From Paraglaciecola sp. MB-3u-78 (GTDB lineage Bacteria; Pseudomonadota; Gammaproteobacteria; Enterobacterales; Alteromonadaceae), in contig NZ_PJCF01000004.1 in NCBI RefSeq assembly GCF_002835935.1, positions 434,001 through 498,000 on the forward strand: a stretch of 64,000 nt of DNA. Direction: 5' to 3'. Shown in pieces: positions 20,774 to 37,664 of this stretch; position 1 is the stretch's first letter, and each line of letters begins with the position of its first letter. Both the position numbers and the translations under genes were made by a program. Under the pieces are notes generated by a model, which was not told where the DNA came from, did not search any database, and saw only the letters and a list, made by a program, of their open reading frames with translations.

Positions 20774-21625
20774 TTGAGAATGGTAGTGGTAAGGGATAAT
20801 ACAAACATACGGTACAGGATTATTGAGTTACTCAGCTATTGGGAAGGGCTGGTTAACACCACTCAACTCATGGAGCACTTTTCCATCAGCCGCACTCAGG
20901 CACAAAAGTACTTCAAATCCTATCAGGTAGACTATCCCGACAACCTTATCTATGACAACCGACTCAAGGGTTTTAAGCCCAGTGAATATTTCACATCCCA
21001 CTGCATAAGTAGCGATGTGAGCGAATATTTAGACTGGTTAAATAATACCGGTCAGCTCGCTGCACCTATGCACAATACACGTTTCACCAATGCATCTTTA
21101 AGTCTGCCAGTGAGACAAGTATTACCCCAAATTATGCGTGGCCTAGTCAGTGCCATAAAGCATCAAAAGCGACTCGAGGTTGACTATGTCTCGCTCGCCA
21201 ATCCCAATGGCGAAGGGCGTATTATTCAGCCCCACATATTTGTTAAAACAGGCCTGCGCTGGCATTTGCGAGCCTTTGACGAAAAACATCAACAATTTAG
21301 AGACTTTGTATTAAGCCGGTTTCGTGGGCAACCCGAAATATTAGATAACGCCACACATAAAGCCGCGCAGGACATAGCATGGAACAAAACTATTGAGATG
21401 ATTTTTTCAGCAGACAGCAGACTCTCACCAAATAAAAAAAACGTCATTGAACAAGATTATCAAATGCAAGACGGCAAGCTAGTCACTAAAACACGGGCAG
21501 CACTGGCCCAATATTTACTGCAAGACATGCAGGTCAATATCAAATTTCATGACGCCATCCCAGAAGCCCAACAACTCATACTGGTTAACTATAACGACAT
21601 AAAACAATGGTTATTTAATGCTTAG
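20774..21625 (+). CDS. WYL-domain transcriptional regulator (BrxR/CapW-like) next to the cas genes
   Basis: 283 residues. N-terminal winged-helix region ('RIIELLSYWEGLVNTTQLMEHFSISRTQAQKYFKSY'-type HTH over residues 10-50), a WYL-like domain in the middle ('HQKRLEVDYVSL', 'IIQPHIFVKTGLRWHLRAFDEK', 'FRDFVLSRF'), and a C-terminal WCX-like extension. In the WYL core the usual tyrosine strand is 'GLRWHLRAFD'. Such proteins repress phage-defence operons and may sense nucleic-acid ligands. A TTG start at 20774 is better spaced to AAGG than the ATG at 20780. It ends 150 bp before cas1 on the same strand, so it probably regulates the cas genes. Confidence 0.82.
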   Translation: MRMVVVRDNTNIRYRIIELLSYWEGLVNTTQLMEHFSISRTQAQKYFKSYQVDYPDNLIYDNRLKGFKPSEYFTSHCISSDVSEYLDWLNNTGQLAAPMHNTRFTNASLSLPVRQVLPQIMRGLVSAIKHQKRLEVDYVSLANPNGEGRIIQPHIFVKTGLRWHLRAFDEKHQQFRDFVLSRFRGQPEILDNATHKAAQDIAWNKTIEMIFSADSRLSPNKKNVIEQDYQMQDGKLVTKTRAALAQYLLQDMQVNIKFHDAIPEAQQLILVNYNDIKQWLFNA

Positions 21626-21775: not shown

Positions 21776-22744
21776 GTGAAAGATTTATCACCATCAGATC
21801 TTAAAACCATTTTGCATTCCAAACGGGCGAATTTGTATTACCTGGAATATTGCCGGGTGATGCAAAAAGACGGGCGAGTGTTGTATCTCACTGAAGCCCT
21901 CTCTTCTCAAAAGACAGGGGAGAATCAGTATTTTAATATCCCTATCGCCAATACCACAGTGTTGCTTCTGGGCAACGGCACATCTATCACCCAAGCAGCA
22001 GTAAGAATGCTCGCCCAAGCGGGCGTATTACTTGGATTTGCTGGTGGTGGTGGCACACCGCTCTATATGGGCAATGATATCGAGTGGATGACACCGCAAA
22101 GTGAATATCGGCCAACGGAATATATCCAAGGATGGTTGTCGTTTTGGTTCGATGATGCAAAACGCTTGCAGGCAGCAAAGCAATTCCAGGTAGCAAGAAT
22201 TGAATACCTGTTGCGCGTTTGGGGCAAGGATCGGGATCTGAGTGCTGAAGGATTTACGACGGATAACGCCGATATTAAAGCAGCATTAAACCGTTTTAAC
22301 ACACGCACCGACTTAGCGGTTAAACCTTCTGAACTGTTATTGACCGAAGCACAGCTGACCAAGGTGTTATACAAATTTGCCGCTAAAAATACGGGAGTCA
22401 CAGACTTTAGTCGCCAGCATCAGAGCACCGACAAAGCCAACGATTTTCTTAACCATGGCAACTATCTAGCCTACGGCTTAGCGGCTTGTACATTGTGGGT
22501 ATTAGGCATACCCCATGGTTTTGCCGTGATGCACGGTAAAACCCGCCGCGGGGCACTTGTTTTTGATATAGCCGATTTAATCAAAGACGCCATTGTACTG
22601 CCCTGGGCCTTTATCTGCGCCAAAGAAAATGCCACAGAACAAGAGTTTCGCCAGCAAGTGCTACAAAAATTCACCGACCACAAAGCGCTGGATTTTATGT
22701 TCGAACAGGTCAAAAAAGTTGCGTTGCAAGAGCAGAAAGAATGA
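21776..22744 (+). CDS. cas1: Type I-F CRISPR-associated endonuclease Cas1
   Basis: 322 residues, typical of Cas1f. It starts at GTG with TAAGGAGT upstream. Metal-binding catalytic residues are in place: Glu191 in 'LLTEAQLTKVLYKF', His253 in 'GFAVMHGKTRRG', and Asp264/267 in 'LVFDIADLIKDA'. With the Cas2 part of Cas2-3 it forms the integrase that inserts new spacers next to the leader. In most I-F loci cas1 and cas2-3 abut; here a reversed vapBC pair separates them by about 690 bp, with vapC ending only 13 bp after cas1. Confidence 0.96.
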   Translation: MKDLSPSDLKTILHSKRANLYYLEYCRVMQKDGRVLYLTEALSSQKTGENQYFNIPIANTTVLLLGNGTSITQAAVRMLAQAGVLLGFAGGGGTPLYMGNDIEWMTPQSEYRPTEYIQGWLSFWFDDAKRLQAAKQFQVARIEYLLRVWGKDRDLSAEGFTTDNADIKAALNRFNTRTDLAVKPSELLLTEAQLTKVLYKFAAKNTGVTDFSRQHQSTDKANDFLNHGNYLAYGLAACTLWVLGIPHGFAVMHGKTRRGALVFDIADLIKDAIVLPWAFICAKENATEQEFRQQVLQKFTDHKALDFMFEQVKKVALQEQKE

Positions 22745-22757
22745 AATTATACCTAAT

Positions 22758-23126
22758 TCAATGGAAAGAAAAGCTGAGCTTTAAGTCGTCTGCAAGGTTT
22801 TTTAATCTGCGATCATTTGTCCACAAAAAGGTGTTAGTACTGAGTAACGTTGACGCCAGTAAATGTAGATCAATAAAACCAATGCCTTTACCAAACAAGC
22901 TGTGTTTTTCTAAACAGTGCAAGGCCTCTTGATGCGTAGCATGGTTAGCATGTGGCAAACTTTGCCACAATTTGATGATGGACAAACGATTTCGCAAATT
23001 GCCACAAGCCAGTTCACCAACAATCATAGGATGCATGCAGACTTGCCCATTTATCAACAATTGGCTCAGCACATCATCTTTTTTACGAATGTGATCAATC
23101 CACACAGAGCTATCGACCAAAACCAT
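22758..23126 (-). CDS. vapC: VapC-family PIN-domain toxin
   Basis: 122 residues of a PIN ribonuclease. Acidic residues expected at the active site are visible: Asp5 in 'MVLVDSSVWIDH', Glu38 in 'MIVGELACG', Asp near residue 87 in 'GIGFIDLHLLAS' and Asp near residue 104 in 'LWTNDRRL'. VapC toxins cleave tRNA or rRNA when freed from their antitoxin. The ATG overlaps the vapB stop by one base, the usual coupled arrangement. It sits inside the CRISPR-Cas locus, convergent with cas1. Confidence 0.9.
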   Translation of the reverse strand: MVLVDSSVWIDHIRKKDDVLSQLLINGQVCMHPMIVGELACGNLRNRLSIIKLWQSLPHANHATHQEALHCLEKHSLFGKGIGFIDLHLLASTLLSTNTFLWTNDRRLKNLADDLKLSFSFH

Positions 23127-23326
23127 TATTCAGTCATTTCGCTCTGGCGACGAGGGCTCAATTGTGCCGACGGATCAGTACCGCCCAATAAAGCCAAACG
23201 TCGTGCGCTTTCACGCTCAATTAAAGCTTTTAAGCCCTCTCTCATTAAAGCGGTTTTTTCTTTTACACCCGTCAACTCAACGGCTTGTGCAAATAAGTCA
23301 TCATCGATATTTAAGGTTGTACGCAT
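23126..23326 (-). CDS. vapB: VapB-family antitoxin
   Basis: 66 residues. 'MRTTLNIDDDLFAQAVELTG' followed by 'KTALMREGLKALIERES' is the ribbon-helix-helix or DUF2191 type of VapB antitoxin; the C-terminal tail wraps the PIN toxin. The protein should repress its own promoter, alone and with VapC. The promoter lies in the 111-bp gap shared with the divergent cas2-3 gene, where a strong palindrome is present at 23342-23379. Confidence 0.88.
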   Translation of the reverse strand: MRTTLNIDDDLFAQAVELTGVKEKTALMREGLKALIERESARRLALLGGTDPSAQLSPRRQSEMTE

Positions 23327-23437: not shown

Positions 23438-26400
23438 ATGATGGTCACCTTTGTCAGCCAATGCGAAAAAAACGCCCTCAAGAAAACCCGCAGAGTACTA
23501 GACGCCTTTGCCGACCGCATAGGCGACAACACCTGGCAAACCCTGATCACCGAAGACGGCCTGCTCACCATTAAAAAAATGCTCCGCCAAACGGCCAGTA
23601 AAAGTACTGCGGTGAGTTGCCACTGGATACGCAGCCGTGCACGTAGCCAGTTTTTGTGGGTGGTGGGTAGTAGGCATAAGTTTAATGAATTGGGCGTGGT
23701 GCCGGTAAATAGTACCAAACGTACTTTGCTGAATACAGATATTGAAAATGATTGGCACTACTTGCCATTAATTAAAGCCTTGGTTGGATTAGCCGCCTTA
23801 TTACATGATTGGGGCAAAGCAACGGCTTTATTTCAGGAAAAACTCAATCCTGTGAATAAAATGGGCTTTAAGGGTGATCCGATCCGTCATGAATGGATTT
23901 CCCTGTTGTTATTAAATGCGTTTATTCAGTCAACGGACACTAGTTCAGACGAAGTTTGGTTAACCCAGCTTAGTAATGGGGTGGTTAATGAAGATACTCT
24001 TAAACAACAGGTAAAACAAAACGAGCTGCAGCCCTTGAGTAAATTGCCGCCAGTTGCCAAGTTAGTCGCCTGGCTCATCGTTTCTCATCATCGTTTACCG
24101 TTGCCGGATAAAGAAAACTGGAACAATTACACAGCGGAATCAGCCGACTCTATTGATGTCATGCTCAGCAGAATTACTAAAGAGTGGGGCTATGAAAATC
24201 GATTTGATGAAATAGAATATCAAAAACGACTAATTGAATGTTTCAGCTTCCCTAAAGGCTTAATAAGCAATTCGAAGCCCTGGCTCAGTCAGATAAAAAA
24301 ATGGTCGCTGCGATTGTTAACCAACCAAAAGCAAGCCACAGAATGTATAAATGATGGTAGTTATCGCGTAGTCATTAACCATGCTCGACTGTGTTTGATG
24401 TTGGGAGACCATTATTACTCATCACAGCAAGCAGATAAAAAATGGCAGGATACAACAGGCTTATTTGCCAACACTGATCGTGCAACTAATCGCTTAAAAC
24501 AAAAATTGGATGAGCACTTAGTCGGAGTAGCGAGAAGTGCCTTACAGACGGCCCATTTGTTACCCGCATTTGAACGGGAGCCACCCGTCGCACAAGACAT
24601 AAATAGTTTAAGAAAACGCAGTCCTAAACCTTTTGAATGGCAAGACAAAGCCGTAGATAAAATCCTTGCTTGGCAGCAAGAGACTGCCAAGCAGAGTAAG
24701 CTGAAATTCGGCTTTTTTACTGTCAATATGGCCAGCACCGGTTGTGGTAAAACATTTGCCAATGCCAAAGTGATGCAAGCCTTATCAAACGACACTAAAA
24801 GCTTACGTTTTATTTTAGCCCTTGGTTTGCGTACGTTAACCTTGCAAACGGGTGATGAGTATCGTAATCGTGTTGGTTTAGATAACAGCGAACTAGCGGT
24901 ACTAATTGGTTCTCGTGCCGTCATGGAATTGCATCAGCAAACAAAGATAGATCAAGACGACCAGAGTTTTGAAAACACCGGTTCTTTGTCACAAGAGCCG
25001 TTGCTGGGTGAGGAGCTGGACTACGACTGCGCCATACCCGAACAAGGTTTAAGTACAGTATTAACGTGCGAGCGTGATAAGCAATTTCTCTATGCACCAG
25101 TTCTGGCTTGTACTATTGATCATCTAATGGCCGCGACTGAAACTAAACGCGGTGGCCGTTATATCTTGCCAACACTGCGGCTTATGTCCTCTGATTTGGT
25201 CATCGATGAAATTGATGATTTTACTGGTGATGATTTAATCGCCATTGGACGCTTGATTCATTTGGCAGGTATGCTTGGCCGTAAAGTGATGATTTCATCG
25301 GCGACTATACCCCCTTATCTTGCCGAAGGTTATTTTAAGGCTTATAGAGATGGTTGGAAATTATATTGCCAAACTCGGGATGCCAGCAATGTTATCGGCT
25401 GCGCCTGGATAGATGAATTTTCGACTAAAGTCAGCACTAACAATAACATTGAAACGCCCTCTGCCATATTGGAATATAGAGAAGAACATACCCAATTTAT
25501 TGAAAAACGTGTAGCAAAACTTCAGCAACAACCAGCCAAACGCAAAGCCGATATTACTGACTGTCAAAGTATTATTGAAGATCATCAGGGGCAAACTCAT
25601 CGCCAGCAAGAGGTAATTGAAAGTAAACAAACAGCCTATTTTGAGTTGATTGCACAAAGTACTCTTAACAAACATCAGCAACATCATTATTACGATGAAC
25701 GCAGCGAAACTAAGGTGTCGTTTGGAGTGATTCGAGTTGCTAATATTTCGCCATGTGTTGACCTCACCCAATATCTGTTAGAAAAAGACTGGCCTGAAAA
25801 CACAGAAGTCAGAGTTATGGCTTATCATAGTCAACAAGTGTTGTTGCTACGCTCTTTACAAGAAAGGCATTTAGATCTGGTTCTTAAACGCAAAGAAAAG
25901 CAATGTGAAATTCCCGCAGCCTTGAATGAACCTGTTATTCGCCAGCATTTAACTATCATAAAAAATCTATCTCCAAAGATTGAAAATGTTCTATTTATAT
26001 TGGTGGCAACACCGGTTGAAGAAGTTGGCCGTGACCACGATTTTGATTGGGCGGTGATCGAACCTTCATCTTATCGTTCTATTATTCAGTTGGCAGGAAG
26101 AGTTAAGCGGCATCGGCAAGGGGAGGTTTCTGAGCCGAATATTGCCTTGATGCAATATAACTGGAAGGGTATACGAGATCATCATGATGAAAATGCCAAG
26201 GTATTTAATCGGCCAGGTTTTGAAGACCTTATTCGTTTAACAACTCATGACATAAAACAGCTTATTGATGTCAATCTCATCGCTCAACGTTTGGATGCCA
26301 TTCCTCGTATTCAACAGTCAGCGCAATTAACGGCAAATTTCCTACGAAATTTAAATCAGGCCTCCAGCTTAGCTGAACTTGAACATGCCGCCACTTGGCA

Positions 26401-26836
26401 TTGGCTGGCAAATTACAAAAATTCTGGCGATAAAGCGCAAGTAGGCCCCCAAACTTTGCAGGGCTGGTTAAATCATCATTGGTTTTTAACTGCCTTGCCT
26501 CAAGCATTAGCACCATTTCGGAAAAGTGCACCGAGCCTAAGGGTGTTTTTGGTGTTTGATGAACATCAGCAAACGAGCCGGTTTTGTGAAAAAAATGAGC
26601 AAGGCTTTGCCATTGAACGGGAGGGGCCACTTAATATACAACGAATAACATTAAGTGAACAAGCGCAGCAAAGATTATGGATAACACGGGATTTTGATCA
26701 AAGTTGTAAGGCGTTAGTCGATGATCAGTATCTTAGTCAAAGAAGAATTTCATTGCGGTATGGGGAGTTAAGCTTCCCCCACGATGAGAAAAAACAGTAT
26801 GGCTATAACGACCAATTGGGATTGGTAAAAATTTAA
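23438..26836 (+). CDS. cas3: Type I-F Cas2-Cas3 fusion nuclease/helicase
   Basis: 1132 residues. Residues 1-95 are the Cas2 domain. An HD nuclease follows with His123-Asp124 in 'LLHDWGKATALF'. The superfamily 2 helicase has Walker A 'STGCGKT' near residue 432, the Walker B 'VIDEIDD' near 588, motif III 'SSATIPP' and motif VI around 'QLAGRVKRH' near 890. Cas2-3 bridges adaptation and interference: it works with Cas1 in spacer integration and is recruited by Cascade to unwind and degrade target DNA. The ATG follows AAGGTG. The gene heads the cas2-3-csy1-csy2-csy3-csy4 unit; its promoter region is shared with the divergent vapBC. Confidence 0.96.
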   Translation: MMVTFVSQCEKNALKKTRRVLDAFADRIGDNTWQTLITEDGLLTIKKMLRQTASKSTAVSCHWIRSRARSQFLWVVGSRHKFNELGVVPVNSTKRTLLNTDIENDWHYLPLIKALVGLAALLHDWGKATALFQEKLNPVNKMGFKGDPIRHEWISLLLLNAFIQSTDTSSDEVWLTQLSNGVVNEDTLKQQVKQNELQPLSKLPPVAKLVAWLIVSHHRLPLPDKENWNNYTAESADSIDVMLSRITKEWGYENRFDEIEYQKRLIECFSFPKGLISNSKPWLSQIKKWSLRLLTNQKQATECINDGSYRVVINHARLCLMLGDHYYSSQQADKKWQDTTGLFANTDRATNRLKQKLDEHLVGVARSALQTAHLLPAFEREPPVAQDINSLRKRSPKPFEWQDKAVDKILAWQQETAKQSKLKFGFFTVNMASTGCGKTFANAKVMQALSNDTKSLRFILALGLRTLTLQTGDEYRNRVGLDNSELAVLIGSRAVMELHQQTKIDQDDQSFENTGSLSQEPLLGEELDYDCAIPEQGLSTVLTCERDKQFLYAPVLACTIDHLMAATETKRGGRYILPTLRLMSSDLVIDEIDDFTGDDLIAIGRLIHLAGMLGRKVMISSATIPPYLAEGYFKAYRDGWKLYCQTRDASNVIGCAWIDEFSTKVSTNNNIETPSAILEYREEHTQFIEKRVAKLQQQPAKRKADITDCQSIIEDHQGQTHRQQEVIESKQTAYFELIAQSTLNKHQQHHYYDERSETKVSFGVIRVANISPCVDLTQYLLEKDWPENTEVRVMAYHSQQVLLLRSLQERHLDLVLKRKEKQCEIPAALNEPVIRQHLTIIKNLSPKIENVLFILVATPVEEVGRDHDFDWAVIEPSSYRSIIQLAGRVKRHRQGEVSEPNIALMQYNWKGIRDHHDENAKVFNRPGFEDLIRLTTHDIKQLIDVNLIAQRLDAIPRIQQSAQLTANFLRNLNQASSLAELEHAATWHWLANYKNSGDKAQVGPQTLQGWLNHHWFLTALPQALAPFRKSAPSLRVFLVFDEHQQTSRFCEKNEQGFAIEREGPLNIQRITLSEQAQQRLWITRDFDQSCKALVDDQYLSQRRISLRYGELSFPHDEKKQYGYNDQLGLVKI

Positions 26837-26847
26837 TAGGAGGGTTT

Positions 26848-28149
26848 ATGGTAGACAAAGAAATAACGGCTTTTTTCGACGAACGAAAAACCTCATGGTT
26901 AAAGAAAAATATTTCAGCAACGATGTCAGAAGTGGATGTGCGAGAGAAAAAATTAGAGTGCGAATCTGTTTTTGCACTAAAGCATTGGCTACCCAATGCG
27001 GCCAGTAGAGCAGGGCAGATCACTATTTCAACACACCCTTGTACATTTAGTCACCCCAGTTCACGTAAAAATAAAAACGGCTATGCCAGTTCTATTATTG
27101 CTAATAGCAAGAGGGTAAATGATGGATTTTTAAGGAGTGGAAATGTCGCAGTCGATGCAGATGCTTTAGGTAATGCTGCCGCGTTAGACGTATATAAATT
27201 TTTAACTCTGGTGATGGGAGACGGGCAAACTTTAATCGAACATCTGGAACAAGATACTGATCTAGCATTAAGTTTACTTTCATTATCCAATGCTGATGAA
27301 AGTCAAAATTACCAAAAGCTAAAACATGGCTTTTTGGCAATGACGACTGGTGCTGACGAAAGTATTACCAGCTCCAAAATAAAACAGGTCTTTTTCCCTG
27401 TAAAAGAACAATCTAATGGCAATCCTACAGACGTTAATAATTATCACCTGCTGTCTATTTTGACTGCATCAGGAATGGTATTTGAATTAAGAAAGCGCCT
27501 TGATGGGATGCGCTTTGGTGATGCTATAAAACTTGCGCGCGACAAAAAAAAGAATAATCAGCAGCACGAAGGTTATTGCGAAATTTATAATTTAACCACT
27601 ATTGGTTACGGTGGTACAAAACCACAAAATATTAGTGTGCTAAATAACCAGAATGGGGGCAAAGCTCATATGTTTATGAGTGCACCGCCGCAATTAAAAA
27701 ATCGCAATATACACTTTCCTCATACAGACTTTTTCAGTCAAACCGTGAATTATTTCCAATGTAAAAATCAGTTTTATCAGTTGCATAAACTCTATAGTCG
27801 TGACGATAACAATATGCATATACGGGCTGAGCGTGATGAGTATTATCAAAGTGTGATTGATCACATTATTGAAAAAATGTGGCAGGTACGTAGCATCGCA
27901 CTTGAGCAATATAACTCATCAGCAAACCAATTACAGTCGTCACAAAAAACATGGTTGTGCGAAGACGAATCCAGCAAAACGCTGCGAGATACCACAGATG
28001 ATTGGTTGGACGGAATAGTTAAATCAGTGTCCATTTTCTTATTTTATGGTTATGAAAAAATACTGGGTAAAAAAGCCGTTAAATTCAGTGATGTTGAGCA
28101 TATATATATCCAGCAGTTGGTGTTGTTAAATAAGGAGGCATTGCGATGA
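26848..28149 (+). CDS. csy1: Type I-F Cascade large subunit Csy1 (Cas8f)
   Basis: 433 residues, normal for Csy1. Recognised by its place in the I-F operon and family-typical segments such as 'KHWLPNAASRAGQITISTHPC', read here in two parts around residues 45-65, and 'GYGGTKPQNIS' with 'LLSSPP'-like 'MFMSAPPQL' later. Csy1 pairs with Csy2 at the 5-prime end of the crRNA and reads the GG protospacer-adjacent motif. A GGAGGG site is 6 bases before the ATG, 11 bp after cas2-3. The stop overlaps the csy2 start (ATGA). Confidence 0.93.
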   Translation: MVDKEITAFFDERKTSWLKKNISATMSEVDVREKKLECESVFALKHWLPNAASRAGQITISTHPCTFSHPSSRKNKNGYASSIIANSKRVNDGFLRSGNVAVDADALGNAAALDVYKFLTLVMGDGQTLIEHLEQDTDLALSLLSLSNADESQNYQKLKHGFLAMTTGADESITSSKIKQVFFPVKEQSNGNPTDVNNYHLLSILTASGMVFELRKRLDGMRFGDAIKLARDKKKNNQQHEGYCEIYNLTTIGYGGTKPQNISVLNNQNGGKAHMFMSAPPQLKNRNIHFPHTDFFSQTVNYFQCKNQFYQLHKLYSRDDNNMHIRAERDEYYQSVIDHIIEKMWQVRSIALEQYNSSANQLQSSQKTWLCEDESSKTLRDTTDDWLDGIVKSVSIFLFYGYEKILGKKAVKFSDVEHIYIQQLVLLNKEALR

Positions 28150-29099
28150 TAGGCGAAGTTAAAAAATTACTGATTATCCCTCACATTAAAGTGCATAACG
28201 CTAACGCACTATCAAGCCCGTTCACCATAGGTTTTCCAGCAATGACAGCTTGGTTAGGTGCGGTGCATGCTCTGCAACGTAAGTTAAACGCGCAAGATAT
28301 CTCAGTTGTTTTTTCAGCCACAGGCGTGGTGAGCCATGATATGGATTTGCAAACCTACAAAGGTGACAACGACTTTGTGCGTTCGATTGTGGGCACAGGT
28401 AATCCCTTGGACAAAACTGGTTCGAGATCAGCATTCATCGAAGAAGCGCGTTGTCACCTTGATGTGAGTTTGGTTATTCAATTCGACAACATCACTATTG
28501 ATGAACGTGAACAGATGTTAACTGCCATCAGTCATTTACTTCATGCCAGCATGAAAATCGCAGGGGGGGATATTAAGGCCTTTCAAGCCCCATTTTGTAT
28601 CAATTGTAAAGAAGGTGATGATCAAGATTTACGTAAAGTACAACGGATTTTAATGCCTGGCTATGCGCTAATTGAGCGCCGAGATCTGATGCTAGACGCA
28701 ATGTCTAATGGCTCAGACGCCCTAGACTCATTGATTGATTATCTTGCCATTCATCATAAGTGTGAAACAGATGATGACGGCAATGTAACGTGGAGCAGTT
28801 ATCGCAAAACACTGCACAATAAACCCGCGGGATGGATAGTACCAATCGCCACCGGATTTCATGGCATCAGTGAATTGGGTGATGCTAAAAACCAGCGGGA
28901 TCCAGTCACGCCTCATCGCTTTGCAGAAAGCATCATCACCTTAGGTGAATTTAAAATGCCTCACCGGATTAGATTTATCGAAGACATATTGTGGCGTTAT
29001 CACAGTGAGGGCGATCTGTACCTTTGCCAACAAAATAAACACGCAACTTCAAAGAATGAACTTGATTCAGAGTCAAGTGCAATCGAATCTGAATTTTAA
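28146..29099 (+). CDS. csy2: Type I-F Cascade subunit Csy2 (Cas5f)
   Basis: 317 residues. The N-terminal RAMP segment 'LLIIPHIKVHNANALSSPFT' and 'IGFPAMTAWLGAVHALQRKL' are hallmark Csy2 features. Later 'PTIAT'-like 'GWIVPIATGFHGISELG' and 'FAESIITLGEFKMPHRI' complete the family pattern. It binds the 5-prime handle of the crRNA together with Csy1. Translation is coupled to csy1 by a 4-base overlap. Confidence 0.93.
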   Translation: MIGEVKKLLIIPHIKVHNANALSSPFTIGFPAMTAWLGAVHALQRKLNAQDISVVFSATGVVSHDMDLQTYKGDNDFVRSIVGTGNPLDKTGSRSAFIEEARCHLDVSLVIQFDNITIDEREQMLTAISHLLHASMKIAGGDIKAFQAPFCINCKEGDDQDLRKVQRILMPGYALIERRDLMLDAMSNGSDALDSLIDYLAIHHKCETDDDGNVTWSSYRKTLHNKPAGWIVPIATGFHGISELGDAKNQRDPVTPHRFAESIITLGEFKMPHRIRFIEDILWRYHSEGDLYLCQQNKHATSKNELDSESSAIESEF

Positions 29100-29136
29100 T
29101 TCAATCAACATTCAACACAAGTAAAGGATATTTAAC

Positions 29137-30162
29137 ATGGCTAAGAAAGACAACATTGCATCGGTATTGGCATTTGAAAAAAAACTAGTAACCAGTGACG
29201 GTTATATGTATGGCACAACGTGGGATAAGCGTAGTCAAGTAACGCCCCTTGCTTTAATAGAAAAATCGGTTCGAGGAACTATATCAAATCGCTTGAAGCC
29301 AGCTATTAAAAGTGACCCAGCAAAGCTTAATGCGGAAGTTGAAAAAGCAAACTTACAACGTGTTGATGCTTGTGCATTGGCACCAGACCAAGACACCTTA
29401 AATCTACAATTTACCATAAAAGTTTTAGGTGGCATTACTAAGCCATCAGCTTGTAACAATGCATTGTTTAAACAAAGTTATAGTGCAGCTGCCGGTGGGT
29501 ATATTACCAGTCAGGCATTTACTGAGCTGGCACGGCGTTATGCAAGCAATATCGCCAATGCGCGTTTTTTATGGCGTAACCGTGTAGGTGCTGCGAATAT
29601 TGAAGTACAAGTAAATGCAAAAAACAGCACGGTAAATGAGACGTGGCTTTTTGATGCAACACAATTTAATACCCGTAATTTTGATTTTAATGATGATGGT
29701 ATCAACCAATTAGCTGGGCATATAGCCACTGCTCTTGCCAGTGAAGATAACTTTTTATTGTTGGATATAAGTTGTTTTGTGCAAGTGGGTAAAGCGCAGG
29801 AAGTGTATCCCAGTGAAGAATTAGTACTGGATAAAGGAAAGGGCGAGAAAAGTAAAATTCTTTATGATGTTAATGGGATTGCAGCCATGCATTCGCAAAA
29901 AATTGGTAATGCCTTGCGAACTATCGACACCTGGTATCCTGAATTTTCTGATCCTGAAACTAGCGCGGGTCCGATTGCCATCGAACCTTACGGCGCAGTA
30001 ACCAACTTGGGTAAAGCTTATCGAACGCCTGCTGCGAAACAGGATTTTTATACTTTTTTTGATGTTTGGGCTCGCGGTGAAAAACTATCGCGTGTAGAAG
30101 ATGAGCATTATGTGATGGCTACGTTAGTTCGTGGTGGCGTGTTTGGCGAAAGCGATAAATAA
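29137..30162 (+). CDS. csy3: Type I-F Cascade backbone subunit Csy3 (Cas7f)
   Basis: 341 residues, normal length. The product starts 'MAKKDNIASVLAFEKKLVTS' and contains 'FLLLDISCFVQVGKAQEVYPS' and the C-terminal 'GAVTNLGKAYRTP' block, all typical of Csy3. Six copies line the crRNA spacer in Cascade. A 37-bp gap with AAAGGA separates it from csy2. Confidence 0.94.
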   Translation: MAKKDNIASVLAFEKKLVTSDGYMYGTTWDKRSQVTPLALIEKSVRGTISNRLKPAIKSDPAKLNAEVEKANLQRVDACALAPDQDTLNLQFTIKVLGGITKPSACNNALFKQSYSAAAGGYITSQAFTELARRYASNIANARFLWRNRVGAANIEVQVNAKNSTVNETWLFDATQFNTRNFDFNDDGINQLAGHIATALASEDNFLLLDISCFVQVGKAQEVYPSEELVLDKGKGEKSKILYDVNGIAAMHSQKIGNALRTIDTWYPEFSDPETSAGPIAIEPYGAVTNLGKAYRTPAAKQDFYTFFDVWARGEKLSRVEDEHYVMATLVRGGVFGESDK

Positions 30163-30171
30163 GGGGATGAT

Positions 30172-30774
30172 ATGAAATATTATCTCGACATAACCTTACT
30201 ACCAGACGCAGAAGCCAACCTTGGTTTCCTCTGGCAAAAGGTATTTCAGCAAGTACATATTGCGCTGGTGGATAACAAAGTAGGTGACAACGAATCAGCG
30301 GTTGCCCTCTCTGTTGTGGGCTATGGCGATAAAGCCTTTCCCTTAGGCAACAAACTGCGCTTGTTGGCGGCCAGTGAAGATATATTGCAGAAATTGGATA
30401 TGCAACGTTGGCTCAATAGGCTAAGTGATTACTGTCATCTGTCATCGATTAAACCGGTGCCTGCTGAGGTCAAGCAATATGCTCGGTTTAATCGTAAAAA
30501 TGTGAAATCTATTGAGAAAAAAGCGCAACGCCGCGCCGTACACTTAGCTAAATCCTACAATGAAGTTTTGGCTTATCTGATTGAAGAGGGTAAATCTAAA
30601 GAGTGTAAATTGCCCTTTATCAACGTAGAAAGTCAAGAGTCTAAAAAGCAATCAGGGCAGGGCGTGTCCTGTCAGTTTTTACTCTTCATCGAAAAAACTC
30701 TTTTTGATGAAGCCGTGAACGGTAAGTTTGATTGTTATGGTCTATCTAAAACTGCCACCGTACCTTGGTTTTAG
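30172..30774 (+). CDS. csy4: CRISPR RNA endonuclease Csy4 (Cas6f)
   Basis: 200 residues. The catalytic His is at position 29 ('FQQVHIAL'), the same position as in the Pseudomonas enzyme. The basic helix 'RFNRKNVKSIEKKAQRRA' around residue 105-125 is the arginine-rich helix that holds the repeat hairpin, and 'FDCYGLSKTATVPWF' is the typical C-terminus. It cuts the pre-crRNA at the base of the repeat stem (CTGCC/GGCAG) and stays bound. Last cas gene; a terminator follows at 30809. Confidence 0.95.
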   Translation: MKYYLDITLLPDAEANLGFLWQKVFQQVHIALVDNKVGDNESAVALSVVGYGDKAFPLGNKLRLLAASEDILQKLDMQRWLNRLSDYCHLSSIKPVPAEVKQYARFNRKNVKSIEKKAQRRAVHLAKSYNEVLAYLIEEGKSKECKLPFINVESQESKKQSGQGVSCQFLLFIEKTLFDEAVNGKFDCYGLSKTATVPWF

Positions 30775-30808
30775 TGCCAGAACACTAGCTGTTAGTTGAT
30801 GCTTTAAA

Positions 30809-30840
30809 AATAACCCGCCGTATATGGCGGGTTATTTTTT
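30809..30840 (+). terminator. Rho-independent terminator after the cas operon
   Basis: An 11-bp perfect stem AATAACCCGCC / GGCGGGTTATT (30809-30819, 30826-30836) with a 6-nt loop ends in a run of T. It separates cas operon transcription from the CRISPR leader. Confidence 0.88.
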
Positions 30841-30841
30841 C

Positions 30842-30963
30842 TATGGGTTCAACTTACCCAATTGACCAATAAAAATCGCTCTTTAACAATAAGCAATAAA
30901 ATCATATAGTTATCACAAGCCGAAAAAACATTGGTAAAAATGCCCATTTACCTCTATCTGCTT
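30842..30963 (+). promoter_or_regulatory. CRISPR leader, upstream part (split by a group II intron)
   Basis: AT-rich DNA between the cas terminator and the intron. Together with 32886-32915 it would make an uninterrupted leader of about 150 bp directly before the first repeat, the usual position in I-F loci. A hairpin GGTAAA/TTTACC lies at 30933-30952, 11 bases before the intron boundary. The array promoter is probably here, so the array is now transcribed through the intron. Confidence 0.7.
30900..30912 (+). promoter_or_regulatory. IHF-like site in the CRISPR leader
   Basis: AATCATATAGTTA differs from the IHF consensus WATCAANNNNTTR at one defined position. IHF bends I-F leaders to guide Cas1-Cas2-3 to the first repeat. 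Without the intron the site would be about 80 bp from the first repeat; now it is about 2 kb away. Confidence 0.4.
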
Positions 30964-32885
30964 GTGTACGCCCAGCATGGGCACGAACTAATGAGGTGAA
31001 AGTCCTCTGTAGGAAGATCACCGTTTATATAACTTACCGTTATTAAACGTTAACTACTAGCGAATGGCAAGGGCTTAGCCGCGAGGCTTGGTCTGGAGGA
31101 AGCCGGACGCAAATTTGCGAGCTGATGAACAAGAACATCATATGAGGCGTAGGCTAGAGGTGAGTTGGCACAAGACGACGAAACCACGTGATCTAATGGC
31201 CACCGTAAATGATGCAGCAGTGCAAAGAAAGTTCATGCTTTTATCTGGGGAGATCTGCTTAACAAGCGATCGGTAACTAACCAGTGAGGCTCTGGTATAC
31301 AAGTGCCTTGGCTTTTCAGTGTCATCGACTGGAAAGAGCAAATAGATGAAAACCGATAGCGCATAACGGTGTAAGCCGTCATGTGATTAAGCAGAAGTCA
31401 GCAGACGACATATTAGCCAAATGCCCATCGTAATGGTTGGGACACGGTGAAGGTCCGAACATTTAGAACAAAGGAGGAGCCTTGTCAGACTTGAATACAC
31501 GAATGCCGTCCGGTAGTGACGTGACTCAGCGTACCGACAAGCAGCCAGCCTTTAGTGCAGATCTACTTGGGCTTATTCTTCGTCCAGCCAATATCTTGGC
31601 TGCATGGAAACGAGTTCGAGCCAACAAAGGGGCCGCTGGCATTGATGGGATGTCCATTGATGACTTCCCCGCTTGGGCAAAGGATGGAAACTGGAAACGT
31701 ATTATGTCTGAGCTTTGCTCAGGTCAATACCAACCTTCACCCGTTCGGCGTGTGGAAATAGATAAACCAGATGGCGGTAAACGTCAGCTAGGTATCCCGA
31801 CCATCGTTGACCGAGTGATCCAACAAGCCATTGCTCAAGTCCTTACGCCTATTTTCGACCCGACCTTCTCAGACAACAGTTTTGGGTTCAGGCCAAATCG
31901 AAATGGGCAACAAGCGGTGAAACAGGTACAAAGCATCATTAAAACGGGTCGCCGTTTTACAGTCGATGTTGATCTGTCTAAGTTCTTTGACCGCGTTAAT
32001 CATGATTTACTTATGACGCTCCTTGGCTACAAAGTGAAGGACAAACGTCTACTTAAATTGATTAAACGTTATCTGCGAGCTGGGGTTATCGATAACCAGC
32101 TTTACGTGGAGAGCCGAGAAGGAGTACCACAAGGCGGGCCGTTGTCACCCTTGCTGTCCAACATCATGCTCGACCCTCTGGACAAAGAGCTTGAGAAACG
32201 AGGCCATCAGTTTGCCCGATACGCGGACGACTTTACCATTTTGGTAAAGACGCCGCGTTCGGGCAAGCGTGTGCTGAGTAGTATCAGCAGGTTCCTGTGT
32301 CACCGTTTGAAACTGGTCGTTAATACGACCAAAAGCCACGTCGTTAAAACCAGTGAAAGCAAATTCCTTGGATTCACATTCAACAGAGGACGCATTCAAT
32401 GGCATCCGAAGACTTTGCTGAAGTTTAAACAGCAAGTTCGGCGGTTAACGAACCGTAACTGGGGCGTGTCTATGCATTATCAACTCTTTAAAATCAGTCA
32501 ATATTTACGAGGCTGGATAAACTACTTTGGTATCGCTAATAGCTATCAACGATGTGTAGACTTAGATCATTGGATCAGGCGCAGAGTGAGAATGGCGTAT
32601 TGGCGGCAGTGGCGAAGACCACGTACCAAAGTCAGAAGTTTAATGAGATTAGGTGTGCATGTACAAGCTGCGGTTGCGTGTGGCATTACCAGTAAAGGGC
32701 CATGGCGTAGTGCGAAAACTCCGGGGATCAATCAAGCCTTATCGCTTGATTACTTAAAATCCGAAGGGCTTTATTCGTTACGTGATGGTTGGATTGCGCT
32801 TCACTATCCTAAATGAAACGCCCTGTGCGGAGCCGCATGCAGGGTGTTGTGGGGGCTGAGGGTTAGAGACCCTTGGCTACCCGAT
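30964..32885 (+). mobile_element. Group II intron (class C-like), about 1.9 kb, inserted in the CRISPR leader
   Basis: The 5-prime end GTGTACGCCCAGCATGGG resembles bacterial group II intron starts. The 3-prime end carries a domain V-like hairpin (CCCTGTGCGG ... GCATGCAGGG around 32820-32845) and a domain VI-like stem ending in CCCGAT at 32885. It encodes one reverse transcriptase/maturase without an endonuclease domain, as in class C introns. A stem-loop followed by 11 bases precedes the junction, fitting class C preference for hairpins. Boundaries are by motif and may shift a few bases. Confidence 0.82.
31482..32816 (+). CDS. ltrA: Group II intron reverse transcriptase/maturase
   Basis: 444 residues from a TTG start, preceded by AAAGGAGGAG. 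Reverse-transcriptase blocks are intact: 'RANKGAAGIDGMS', 'RQLGIPTIVDRVIQQAI', 'NSFGFRPNRNGQQAV', 'VDVDLSKFFDRVNHD', 'GVPQGGPLSPLLSNIMLD' and catalytic 'FARYADDF'. The maturase domain X follows ('LRGWINYFGIANSYQ', 'WRQWRRPRTKVRSLMRLGV'). There is no HNH endonuclease domain. It helps the intron splice and copies it into DNA targets. It is not an RT-Cas1 fusion and there is no sign that it serves spacer acquisition. Confidence 0.93.
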   Translation: MSDLNTRMPSGSDVTQRTDKQPAFSADLLGLILRPANILAAWKRVRANKGAAGIDGMSIDDFPAWAKDGNWKRIMSELCSGQYQPSPVRRVEIDKPDGGKRQLGIPTIVDRVIQQAIAQVLTPIFDPTFSDNSFGFRPNRNGQQAVKQVQSIIKTGRRFTVDVDLSKFFDRVNHDLLMTLLGYKVKDKRLLKLIKRYLRAGVIDNQLYVESREGVPQGGPLSPLLSNIMLDPLDKELEKRGHQFARYADDFTILVKTPRSGKRVLSSISRFLCHRLKLVVNTTKSHVVKTSESKFLGFTFNRGRIQWHPKTLLKFKQQVRRLTNRNWGVSMHYQLFKISQYLRGWINYFGIANSYQRCVDLDHWIRRRVRMAYWRQWRRPRTKVRSLMRLGVHVQAAVACGITSKGPWRSAKTPGINQALSLDYLKSEGLYSLRDGWIALHYPK

Positions 32886-32915
32886 TGTAACTTATTTTTT
32901 TACAGTTATTCTATT
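32886..32915 (+). promoter_or_regulatory. CRISPR leader, repeat-proximal 30 bp
   Basis: Thirty AT-rich bases remain between the intron end and the first repeat. Repeat-proximal leader bases are the ones contacted by the integrase, so this remnant may or may not suffice for new spacer integration. Confidence 0.6.
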
Positions 32916-35744
32916 GTTCACTGCCGCACAGGCAGCTTAGAAATACAGTTAAGATTAATTAGTAAAAAGCTAGCAGTTCACTGCCGCACAGGCAGCTTAG
33001 AAACTACTATTTATGGAAGCTTTAAAGGTGATTTAGTTCACTGCCGCACAGGCAGCTTAGAAAATTAGGTGCATTAATTCCAAAGCCTGATTAACGTTCA
33101 CTGCCGCACAGGCAGCTTAGAAATGCTTATAATACTCAATTGTCATAACTTACTCGTTCACTGCCGCACAGGCAGCTTAGAAATTATACGATTGATTTAT
33201 TCGGGGGTCTGTAATGTTCACTGCCGCACAGGCAGCTTAGAAACAAAAGTATCAAATATTACCGCGCAAATACTTGTTCACTGCCGCACAGGCAGCTTAG
33301 AAACATTTAAGCTTACATCTAAAGACAGGAAGTTTGTTCACTGCCGCACAGGCAGCTTAGAAAACTACCAAGTAAGCGCGGATTACAATAGTAAAGTTCA
33401 CTGCCGCACAGGCAGCTTAGAAAAGCAAATGATATGCCCGCCAGCAAAAAGAAAAGTTCACTGCCGCACAGGCAGCTTAGAAAAACACAAGTCATAGTGT
33501 TGTTTCATTGATGTAGTTCACTGCCGCACAGGCAGCTTAGAAAAGCAAATGATATGCCCGCCAGCAAAAAGAAAAGTTCACTGCCGCACAGGCAGCTTAG
33601 AAAGCTTGTATTGAACGCCACAAACTCCGCAACAAGTTCACTGCCGCACAGGCAGCTTAGAAAATCATCATTGTATCCATGACATGCTATGCCGCGTTCA
33701 CTGCCGCACAGGCAGCTTAGAAATTGTCCGTCCATCAGTGTCACGCTGTCGCCATGTTCACTGCCGCACAGGCAGCTTAGAAAAAAGGCTGGCGACATTA
33801 ATCTATAGTTTAGATGTTCACTGCCGCACAGGCAGCTTAGAAAAGGTTAGCCCGTGAATGTGCCGATACAGTAATGTTCACTGCCGCACAGGCAGCTTAG
33901 AAATGTAGGCATCATTTGTGCTGTATAGGATTCGTGTTCACTGCCGCACAGGCAGCTTAGAAATGTCACCTGACACGCTTGCATCTTCCATTCTTGTTCA
34001 CTGCCGCACAGGCAGCTTAGAAAGAATGGCGCTTACAATATTGATGTTGTTTACGGTTCACTGCCGCACAGGCAGCTTAGAAATACAAAGAATTTGCGCG
34101 TTTGCATATTGAAAAGTTCACTGCCGCACAGGCAGCTTAGAAATACAAAGAATTTGCAAGGGCGCACATTGAAAAGTTCACTGCCGCACAGGCAGCTTAG
34201 AAAAAGCATGATTAAGGGCCAAGGTTCGCACAATCGTTCACTGCCGCACAGGCAGCTTAGAAATTTAATTACTGGGCTTGGTTTGAGTACGCTGTGTTCA
34301 CTGCCGCACAGGCAGCTTAGAAATGATGAGAGTCTTTCACATATTTCATCTGCAAGTTCACTGCCGCACAGGCAGCTTAGAAAGTCCAGCCGTTGCCTAA
34401 CATTTTATATTGTTGGTTCACTGCCGCACAGGCAGCTTAGAAAAGAAACACACAAAAACAAGTCTAAAAGTAAAGGTTCACTGCCGCACAGGCAGCTTAG
34501 AAATCTATAGTGATAACTCCCTCTATAGTGATAACGTTCACTGCCGCACAGGCAGCTTAGAAATGATTTGATTGCAGCAGCAACGCATGTGTTGCGTTCA
34601 CTGCCGCACAGGCAGCTTAGAAAAACGCCGACCTGAGGCTGCGCACCGATAGCCAGTTCACTGCCGCACAGGCAGCTTAGAAAGGCCCACTCACTCAGTT
34701 TTACGCCTGATTTGAGTTCACTGCCGCACAGGCAGCTTAGAAAATATATCGCTTGGTTACTTGCTTATGATTAGCGTTCACTGCCGCACAGGCAGCTTAG
34801 AAAAAGTATGATCAGCTCAATACAAGAGAGGTATCGTTCACTGCCGCACAGGCAGCTTAGAAAAATAATAAAATTATTAATAAACATATACACTAGTTCA
34901 CTGCCGCACAGGCAGCTTAGAAAAGCAACTATCTAACCAGCAACTATCTAACCATGTTCACTGCCGCACAGGCAGCTTAGAAAACGATTCAATGACCTTG
35001 GTGCGCCTAACGGTAGTTCACTGCCGCACAGGCAGCTTAGAAAATTTAAGTAAATAGTGCCCACCGCGCCTAAGCGTTCACTGCCGCACAGGCAGCTTAG
35101 AAAAAGCCAAGAACGACTCCGAAATTGGTGGTGATGTTCACTGCCGCACAGGCAGCTTAGAAAGTTTGACCCTGACGCTGGACTAACGGTACTAAGTTCA
35201 CTGCCGCACAGGCAGCTTAGAAACATAGCAATAATGGCCGTGAACGGCAGAGTAAGTTCACTGCCGCACAGGCAGCTTAGAAATCAACCTAACCGTTGGG
35301 GCTTTTTAATGTGTGGTTCACTGCCGCACAGGCAGCTTAGAAAGCGAATAGTAGCCTCACCAACTGCCAAAGCCTGTTCACTGCCGCACAGGCAGCTTAG
35401 AAATGTTGATGTATCGAGTGATGTATCTGACGGCTGTTCACTGCCGCACAGGCAGCTTAGAAAACCAGTGCAGGGCATTATTTGCATTGATGAAAGTTCA
35501 CTGCCGCACAGGCAGCTTAGAAAGTCAGGGTCGCGCAGTATAGTTGAAAATTCTTGTTCACTGCCGCACAGGCAGCTTAGAAAGAATGGCAAATCTAATG
35601 TTCAAGATGCCGTAGGTTCACTGCCGCACAGGCAGCTTAGAAAAGCATGTCAACATCTGAATTAAATTTAGAATCGTTCACTGCCGCACAGGCAGCTTAG
35701 AAACTACAATAATATCCATCAATAATTCTCCAATTGTTCACTGC
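32916..35744 (+). CRISPR. Type I-F CRISPR array: 47 identical 28-bp repeats, 47 spacers of 32 bp, plus a 9-bp truncated last repeat
   Basis: Repeat GTTCACTGCC...CAGCTTAGAAA (28 bp) with the I-F hairpin CTGCC/GGCAG recurs exactly every 60 bp from 32916 to 35676. All copies read the same by eye. The orientation and leader place transcription left to right. A 48th repeat at 35736 stops after GTTCACTGC, where RAYT-associated sequence begins. Spacers 9 (33424) and 11 (33544) are identical; 20 (34084) and 21 (34144) are homologous variants; 27 (34504) and 34 (34924) are internally repeated. Confidence 0.98.
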
Positions 35745-36020
35745 AGACCCAATTTACAGGGACACCCATTGCAGACCCAATTTACAGGGACACCCATTAT
35801 AAATCAATTTACAGGAATTTACAGGGACACCCATTATAAATTGACTGCAGACCCAATTTACAGGGACACCCATTATAAATCAATTTACAGGAATTTACAG
35901 GGACACCCATTATAAATTGACTATTTACCCATTATCAATTTACAGGGACACCCATTATAAATTGACTATTTAATAACCTGTTCTATATTTTAAGATACGG
36001 ATTGTTAACTAAGTGGGTAC
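35745..36020. repeat. RAYT-associated short repeats abutting the CRISPR array, including a 76-bp tandem pair
   Basis: The phrase AATTTACAGGGACACCCATT occurs six times here and again at about 36571. Two tandem 76-bp units, each starting GCAGACCC, lie at 35771-35846 and 35847-35922. TCAATTTA...TAAATTGA and GGG...CCC parts are self-complementary, so single copies can fold as REP-like hairpins. They are the likely substrate of the adjacent transposase. Confidence 0.75.
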
Positions 36021-36023
36021 CCC

Positions 36024-36617
36024 ATGACCCAAAAACGAGAGAGTTTGGTGTGTTTGTCGGATACACCTTATTACCACTGCGTATCCCGTTGTGTGCGTCG
36101 GTCATTCTTGTGTGGTGTGGACAGTTATTCTGGTCAAAGCTTTGAGCATAGGCGGGCATGGGTAGAAGAGCGTCTGTTGTACTTGTCATCAGTGTATGCA
36201 ATTGATATATGCGCTTATGCCGTGATGAGTAATCATGTACATGTGGTCGTACATGTTGACGTAGATAAAGCACAAGGGTGGAGTGATAAACAAGTCATTA
36301 GCCTGTGGCATACTTTATACAAAGGCACCTTGATTACGCAAAAGCGTATGCGAGATGAGACCCTTAGTCCGGGTGAGGAAGTGACGTTACAAGATACAAT
36401 CAAAGCGTACCGAAGTCGTTTACATGACATCAGCTGGTTTATGCGCAACCTCAATGAATTTATTGCCCGCGAAGCCAACAAAGAAGATGGCTGTACGGGT
36501 AGATTTTGGGAGGGGCGTTTTAAATCTCAGGCCTTGTTAGACGAAAGTGCGGTGTTAGCGTGTATTAAATCAATTTACAGGGACACCCATTATAAATTGA
36601 CTATTTACCCATTATAA
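36024..36617 (+). pseudogene. Truncated copy of a RAYT (IS200-like Y1) transposase gene
   Basis: The first about 180 codons are the same as those of the full gene 657 bp downstream. Identity then ends at 36564, where repeat DNA takes over and adds an unrelated tail ('IKSIYRDTHYKL'). The HUH motif 'SNHVHVVVHV' is kept but the 'AYVDLNPIRAKM' block, conserved in RAYTs, is lost. The duplicated block spans about 35961-36564 and 36618-37221. Confidence 0.85.
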
Positions 36618-36680
36618 ATTGACTATTTAATAACCTGTTCTATATTTTAAGATACGGATTGTTAACTAAGTGGGTACCCC

Positions 36681-37664
36681 ATGACCCAAAAACGAGAGAG
36701 TTTGGTGTGTTTGTCGGATACACCTTATTACCACTGCGTATCCCGTTGTGTGCGTCGGTCATTCTTGTGTGGTGTGGACAGTTATTCTGGTCAAAGCTTT
36801 GAGCATAGGCGGGCATGGGTAGAAGAGCGTCTGTTGTACTTGTCATCAGTGTATGCAATTGATATATGCGCTTATGCCGTGATGAGTAATCATGTACATG
36901 TGGTCGTACATGTTGACGTAGATAAAGCACAAGGGTGGAGTGATAAACAAGTCATTAGCCTGTGGCATACTTTATACAAAGGCACCTTGATTACGCAAAA
37001 GCGTATGCGAGATGAGACCCTTAGTCCGGGTGAGGAAGTGACGTTACAAGATACAATCAAAGCGTACCGAAGTCGTTTACATGACATCAGCTGGTTTATG
37101 CGCAACCTCAATGAATTTATTGCCCGCGAAGCCAACAAAGAAGATGGCTGTACGGGTAGATTTTGGGAGGGGCGTTTTAAATCTCAGGCCTTGTTAGACG
37201 AAAGTGCGGTGTTAGCGTGTATGGCCTACGTTGACCTCAACCCCATTCGTGCCAAGATGACCAGCACTCCCGAAACCTCCAAACACACCAGCATTCAAAA
37301 GCGCATTAAAGCTGTTAAACAAAAGCGCAGGCAGCCCCGTCAACTTATGCCCTTTGTGGGCAACCCTAGACAAAATATGCCCAAAGGCATTGCCTTTAGC
37401 CTCAAGGATTATTGCGAATTAGTGGATACCACAGGCAGGTGTGTACGAGAAGACAAAGCCGGGCACATAACGCATAGCCATAGCCCGATATTGGCGCGTC
37501 TAGGCCTAAACAGTGAACAATGGCTCACGCTTGCGACCGAATTTGAAAAACACTTCTGCTACGCCGCAGGTGCCGAGCAAATGATGTGTGAATTTAAAGC
37601 CCATACTGGCCATCAACGGATGCGTGGCATGGGCAAAGCAAAAACCTTGTTACGCTGCGCATAA
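36681..37664 (+). CDS. REP-associated tyrosine transposase (RAYT), Y1/IS200-like
   Basis: 327 residues. The HUH motif is 'MSNHVHVVVHV' near residue 70; 'LNEFIAREANKEDGCTGRFWEGRFKSQ' and 'ACMAYVDLNPIRAKM' (about residues 180-195) are the conserved RAYT core, with the Tyr of the latter block a candidate nucleophile. The C-terminal third is basic ('KRIKAVKQKRRQPRQ'). RAYTs bind and cut REP hairpins and are thought to spread them. Here the gene is preceded by a duplicated, truncated copy and its repeats, all downstream of the truncated CRISPR array. Confidence 0.88.
   Translation: MTQKRESLVCLSDTPYYHCVSRCVRRSFLCGVDSYSGQSFEHRRAWVEERLLYLSSVYAIDICAYAVMSNHVHVVVHVDVDKAQGWSDKQVISLWHTLYKGTLITQKRMRDETLSPGEEVTLQDTIKAYRSRLHDISWFMRNLNEFIAREANKEDGCTGRFWEGRFKSQALLDESAVLACMAYVDLNPIRAKMTSTPETSKHTSIQKRIKAVKQKRRQPRQLMPFVGNPRQNMPKGIAFSLKDYCELVDTTGRCVREDKAGHITHSHSPILARLGLNSEQWLTLATEFEKHFCYAAGAEQMMCEFKAHTGHQRMRGMGKAKTLLRCA

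Follow-up and report, generated by a model that had tools for sequence, protein, structure and literature searches.

The leader of the type I-F CRISPR array in Paraglaciecola sp. MB-3u-78 is interrupted by a group II intron, which cuts one arm of a leader inverted repeat. We regard it as likely that, taken together, this reflects a recent insertion of a IIC-attC intron in the leader, loss or near loss of spacer acquisition, and interference that is kept without splicing. Group IIC-attC introns normally insert at the TTGT/T core of attC hairpins in integrons; under this explanation, one of them would have recently retrotransposed into the leader of the single sizeable type I-F array of the genome. 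The Cas1-Cas2/3 integrase depends on IHF and on leader inverted repeats that are folded beside the first repeat; it could then no longer assemble there, and leader-directed acquisition would be lost or very low. The existing spacers would still yield crRNAs, with unspliced, spliced or downstream-started RNA being processed alike, and splicing would be possible without being required for crRNAs.

The window, by which we mean the whole 64,000-nucleotide stretch of DNA that was analysed (positions 434001-498000 of contig C1 in G000, a 6.48-Mb draft genome of 87 contigs), carries the type I-F gene set of cas1, the cas2-3 fusion and csy1-csy4, all above NCBIfam cut-offs, together with the leader and the array (Table 1). 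A genome-wide search with PF01867 at an E-value of 0.001 gave one Cas1 place only, and a search for the same repeat within 3 mismatches gave no other sizeable array in the genome. A lone I-F repeat with 2 mismatches lies at C1:99492-99519 (L231), and a degenerate partner stands some 60 nt from it; a second functional array at this place was considered and rejected, as a stray repeat with a degenerate partner looks like a remnant.

Table 1. Coordinates of the type I-F locus, its leader motifs and the intron, in window positions; offsets given with a minus sign count back from the first repeat in the rejoined leader.
Feature	Position	Strand	Basis
cas1 (type I-F), open frame	21776..22744	+	TIGR03637, 462 bits
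cas2-3 fusion (Cas3f), open frame	23438..26836	+	TIGR02562, 954 bits
csy1, csy2, csy3, csy4 (type I-F interference complex)	26848..30774	+	TIGR02564, 02565, 02566, 02563, all above cut-off
Terminator-like hairpin after csy4, 14-bp arms, with T-run	30806..30841	+	Sequence; inverted-repeat listing
IHF-like site AATCATATAGTTA (WATCANNNNNTTR), at -96	30900..30912	+	Sequence
Distal arm of leader inverted repeat, AGTTATCACAAGC, at -88	30908..30920	+	11/13 complementary to proximal arm
Inner hairpin GGTAAA-(8)-TTTACC, 13 nt before insertion point	30933..30952	+	Fold, -4.6 kcal/mol
Proximal arm, first half, GCTTGT; end of 5' exon (IBS1 TTGT)	30960..30965	+	Empty site in G002; 5' flanks
Group IIC (IIC-attC type) intron, 1,920 nt, GTACG...CCCGAT	30966..32885	+	Rfam; genome copies; BLAST break at 30965 / 32885 against G002
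Candidate EBS1, ACAAG in loop of GATG-AACAAGAA-CATC, complementary to 5' exon CTTGT	31124..31139	+	60-nt fold
Intron-encoded reverse transcriptase/maturase, 444 aa, intact frame	31482..32816	+	TIGR04416, 410 bits; RVT_1 and GIIM domains
Domains V and VI, bulged A in domain VI	32816..32885	+	RF00029; fold of 32812-32885
Putative promoter-like pair TTGTAA - 16 nt - TATTCT, survives insertion; first T is last intron base	32885..32912	+	Leader comparison
Proximal arm, second half, TGTAACT; first bases of 3' exon	32886..32892	+	Junction and leader comparison
CRISPR array, 47 identical 28-nt repeats, 46 spacers of 32 nt	32916..35703	+	RF01317; repeat analysis

Both the RNA and the protein of the element identify it as a group II intron. 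Rfam models match group II intron D1D4-3 at 31075-31239 (133 bits), group II intron D1D4-1 at 31360-31455 (59 bits) and Intron_gpII (RF00029), covering domains V and VI, at 32816-32885 (49 bits). The fold of 32812-32885 has an energy of -40.2 kcal/mol (z -5.1), and domains V and VI with a branch-point A are present, as in a group IIC-attC intron. For the intron-encoded protein, the nearest solved chain is the GsI-IIC RT (459 bits, against 155 bits for LtrA), and with its reverse transcriptase and maturase X domain the protein is, by its sequence features, of class C, an assignment made at the level of the class from the nearest solved chains and the domains. The Rfam domains, the TIGR04416 match and the GsI-IIC RT match together bear out the initial annotation of a class C-like intron of about 1.9 kb in the leader, its exact length being 1,920 nt. 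The candidate EBS1 hairpin lies in intron domain I; it is seen in the 60-nt fold and absent from the fold of a longer 175-nt stretch, though ACAAG is unpaired there as well, and the role of ACAAG as EBS1 is putative. With its ribozyme domains, its maturase and a possible EBS1-IBS1 match, the intron looks as if it could be splicing-competent.

The intron boundaries follow from the other three full copies that the genome contains and from the empty site in a relative of the same genus, G002. A genome search with the intron returned nine matches, four of them full length. The copy in the CRISPR leader (L001) and two others (L002 and L003) share one sequence throughout their 1,920 nt, and the remaining full copy (L004) differs in 26 alignment columns, 17 of which are one indel. 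In G002, csy4, the leader and the array stand in the same order without an intron. BLAST against G002 aligns 7,586 columns at 82% identity up to window position 30965 and opens a new segment at 32885, and both segments meet at one G002 base. When the flanks are rejoined, the empty site CTTGT/TGTAACT is restored with no base gained or lost relative to G002. The 5' exon ends in TTGT at 30965, the 3' exon begins with TGTAACT at 32886 and repeat 1 begins at 32916, which confirms the distance of 30 bp that had been given between the intron and the first repeat. The three identical copies suggest that the insertion is apparently recent, and too recent for spacer stasis to be visible.

The mark of group IIC-attC introns, according to the excerpted text of PMC7923331, is TTGT/T with an upstream hairpin, and hairpins other than attC are also usable as targets. 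Among the 16 distinct 5' flanks of the genus, 15 have TTGT at their end, and the 3' flanks begin with T in 25 of 25 cases and with TA in 24. The insertion site in the window is TTGT/T (IBS1/IBS3), and the CRISPR-leader copy is the only one of the 25 3' junctions that does not start with TA. The rejoined flanks of the identical copy L003 fold as an attC site (-53.7 kcal/mol), and the surrounding 12 kb contain four attC-like sites, of which three are on the same side of that copy and no more than 2.8 kb from it. An attC target is thus found at L003 and not at the leader copy, which sits in a CRISPR leader at TTGT/TGTAAC instead of the attC core GTTRRRY. In its class C reverse transcriptase, its TTGT/T insertion and its identical attC copy in the same genome, the element is like the group IIC-attC introns, and with two identical copies elsewhere, one of them in an attC site, it appears to be a recently mobile IIC-attC intron at an ectopic site. 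A stem-loop upstream of IBS1 is present in the leader as well, of a stability that many other TTGTT sites share; the counterpart of this inner hairpin in G002 has 10-bp arms and a fold of -8.9 kcal/mol. A test of whether the leader is an especially favourable target for the intron gave no support: the window with the intron removed has 263 TTGTT sites, and an upstream hairpin of at least this stability is found at 178 of them, at 68 with its stem end 8-17 nt away, so that 68 of the 263 are as good by the hairpin-plus-TTGTT test, and these sites give no evidence of a preference for CRISPR leaders.

The initial annotation had placed the intron between the leader and the array. This is not borne out, as the insertion lies inside the leader and cuts an inverted-repeat arm. 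In the rejoined leader the proximal arm, GCTTGT/TGTAACT (GCTTGTTGTAACT), starts at -36, and the cut comes after 6 of its 13 bases; its halves are now 1.9 kb apart, and 30 nt of leader are left at the first repeat. The inverted repeat is in phase with repeat 1 only in the rejoined flanks; in the DNA as it stands, the 1,920 nt of the intron divide it. The IHF-like site had been described as moved from about 80 bp to about 2 kb from the array. Its displacement holds, in that it now starts 2,016 nt before the repeat, and its original distance is corrected to 96 nt in the rejoined leader. About 160 nt upstream of the repeat as it now stands (L238) lack an IHF-like site and offer at best a 7/13 match to a partner arm. 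Taken alone, the inverted repeat of the window is not beyond chance, with a match as good somewhere in 7 of 100 shuffles; we infer from position and symmetry that its arms correspond to the published I-F leader motifs.

Related leaders were collected with a pattern of TTGYAACT, a T-run and the repeat start, allowing up to 3 mismatches; it matched in 17 genomes of a set of 394 at order level and in 41 of a set of 395 at family level. All 18 order-level places, 30 of the 45 family-level places and the G002 locus were taken, yielding 44 distinct upstream stretches; one of these lay inside an array and was dropped, which left the window and 42 other leaders, related to each other so that their counts are not independent. 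Since the pattern contains most of the proximal arm, the presence of that arm (GTTGTAACT within one mismatch, 41/42) is no evidence. A partner arm, at least 8/13 complementary, stands at -90 to -85 in 35 of the 42 leaders, the partners themselves being placed at -86 to -89. Fourteen six-base ranges tried elsewhere from -55 to -144 gave 0 to 14, and shuffled arms gave a mean of 3.2 and a largest value of 8. The first four arm bases, which the pattern did not include, are complementary to the distal arm in only 74 of 168 cases, which leaves GTTGTAACT as the core of the symmetry. TTGT/T is found at the insertion point in 29 of the 42, and the inner hairpin is equalled by at most 5 of 100 shuffles in 31. 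Restricted to the 31 leaders with two or more repeats downstream, the counts are 25 for the partner, 22 for TTGT/T and 23 for the hairpin. The strict IHF consensus occurs in only 11 of the 42. Seven leaders came from other patterns (L121, L158, L171, L221-L224): L158, L223 and L224 have both arms at the same places, L222 has only TTGTTG at -34, and the remaining three have neither arm.

Compared with other type I-F loci in which the array follows cas6f, the window has the same cas1, cas2-3, csy1-4, repeat and leader architecture as G002 and the family leaders. It differs in that its leader is interrupted by 1,920 nt, whereas none of the 42 other leaders has an intron end before TTGYAACT. A loose pattern of domain V, a gap and the repeat start matched at least 119 genome-contig and 50 viral-contig stretches, with a full repeat in 5 among those listed; four of these 5, inspected by eye upstream, have no intron end. 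The full-repeat version, run on 369 class-level genomes, matched in 5, which are the window junction and four matches lying inside arrays.

The consequences for spacer acquisition can be judged against two studied I-F systems. Excerpts of a study of the P. aeruginosa system describe Cas2 as contacting conserved inverted-repeat motifs of the leader, with IHF needed and folding the leader (PMC12259127). In A. baumannii, cutting the I-F leader to 60 bp left no acquisition, and cutting it to 80 bp left almost none, according to the excerpted report (PMC9602844); in the window 30 bp are left. Spacer acquisition in the window is probably blocked because the cut falls in a conserved inverted-repeat arm and Cas2 sits on such repeats, and the position of the cut inside this arm makes the case for lost acquisition stronger than the one first put forward. 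The A. baumannii truncations and mutants resemble the window in that leader motifs near the array are lost and the array is kept; as excerpted, they are laboratory-made deletions and mutations (PMC9602844), whereas the present interruption is natural, precise, in principle spliceable and known from sequence alone. Acquisition could continue if the last 30 nt with repeat 1, or the half-arm TTGTAACT, were enough, and these 30 nt are indeed in place, with TTGTAACT at their start and its first T now supplied by the last intron base. We consider this quite improbable, given the lack of an IHF-like site and of a better partner arm in the L238 stretch and the effect of the 60-80 bp truncations in A. 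baumannii. No spacer is common to the 46 of the window and 24 of G002 (equal length, within 8 mismatches), which shows only that both lineages had earlier acquired different spacers. An assembly artefact in which one of the identical copies elsewhere was placed in the leader might be suspected in a draft of 87 contigs with three identical 1.92-kb copies, yet a chimera would join unrelated flanks, whereas the two flanks here match a single unbroken leader in G002 and fit together again with no base added or missing. The synteny with G002 led us to reject a chimera, and an artefact of any such kind appears extremely improbable.

Csy4 (Cas6f) cleaves within each repeat in type I-F systems, so RNA upstream of repeat 1 would be discarded, spliced or not, and interference probably persists without splicing. 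The earlier proposal that RNA splicing could restore the pre-crRNA is not supported as stated, splicing being dispensable in view of this cleavage and of the promoter-like pair downstream of the intron. In the other leaders, TATTCT is at the same offset in 30 of 42, and TTGTAA is present in 32 of 42 as part of the search pattern. A promoter scan did not list TTGTAA-16-TATTCT, which has 8 of 12 matches against a threshold of 9; it listed 2 sites, compared with a mean of 3.0 in shuffles. If transcription of the array instead began solely at a promoter on the far side of the intron, splicing or read-through would be needed for enough pre-crRNA and the intron would also control interference. A promoter-like TTAACA-16-TATAGT at 30883-30910 and the apparent splicing competence of the intron speak for this, as does the transcription of leader RNA in the I-F system of P. 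aeruginosa PA14, as excerpted (PMC6700203). Against it stand the scan, with no more sites than its shuffles, the GATGGT of G002 where the window has TATAGT, the discarding of upstream RNA by cleavage in each repeat, and the retention of TATTCT beside the repeat in the related leaders, and on balance we think transcription from upstream only is unlikely. We retain interference without splicing as the preferred reading, under which array transcription may still be altered: in PA14, Rho acts on the long leader RNA, according to the same excerpts (PMC6700203), and by analogy start sites may differ or the intron may lower transcription of the array.

A WYL-domain protein, perhaps a regulator, lies directly upstream of cas1 (20774-21625, +). 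On the opposite strand, between cas1 and cas2-3 (22758-23326, -), are a PIN protein of VapC-like type and a frame of 66 aa, VapB-like by eye, neither of which has a tblastn match in the stretch of G002 that was compared. The corresponding gap of G002 holds one other long frame, KilA-N-like by eye, and the gap between cas1 and cas2-3 may collect foreign genes. Within the array, spacers 9 and 11 have the same sequence, and 6 differences in 32 bases separate spacers 20 and 21 (33424-33575 and 34084-34175). The trailer end is damaged as well (35704-35972): after a 47th spacer of 32 nt, a 48th repeat breaks off beyond about GTTCACTGC, and repeats with AATTTACAGGGACACCC come next. Near these repeats, two adjacent frames of 197 and 327 aa (36024-37664, +) share an N-terminal part, as if a gene had been partly duplicated; they are transposase-like by eye and have no Pfam match at 0.001.

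No group II intron in a CRISPR leader was found among the titles and abstract openings listed from the open-licence PMC literature, a scope that leaves subscription literature mostly outside. In the excerpted text of a paper on two Alteromonas strains, introns are placed only in the strain without CRISPR (PMC4223743). The intron and the CRISPR elements are of known kinds, and their combination did not appear in the literature listed. A broader proposal is that the type I-F leaders here carry a nested, attC-like palindrome with TTGT/T at its foot, that IIC-attC introns read such leaders as recombination sites, and that leader insertion is a recurring lock which holds the array in a read-only mode and can be excised at the RNA level; we regard this as a long shot.

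The locus offers a clean natural experiment, in which one precise event with a known empty site has taken place with no base lost, the cas frames open and the repeats untouched. The motif that the insertion cuts is of a type which, in the structures now available, belongs to the integrase. The case also links two fields, in that a retroelement associated with integrons has taken a CRISPR leader for its alternative target. If acquisition is indeed lost as proposed, the genome carries a read-only CRISPR memory, and further isolates would show the rate at which an array ages without updating.
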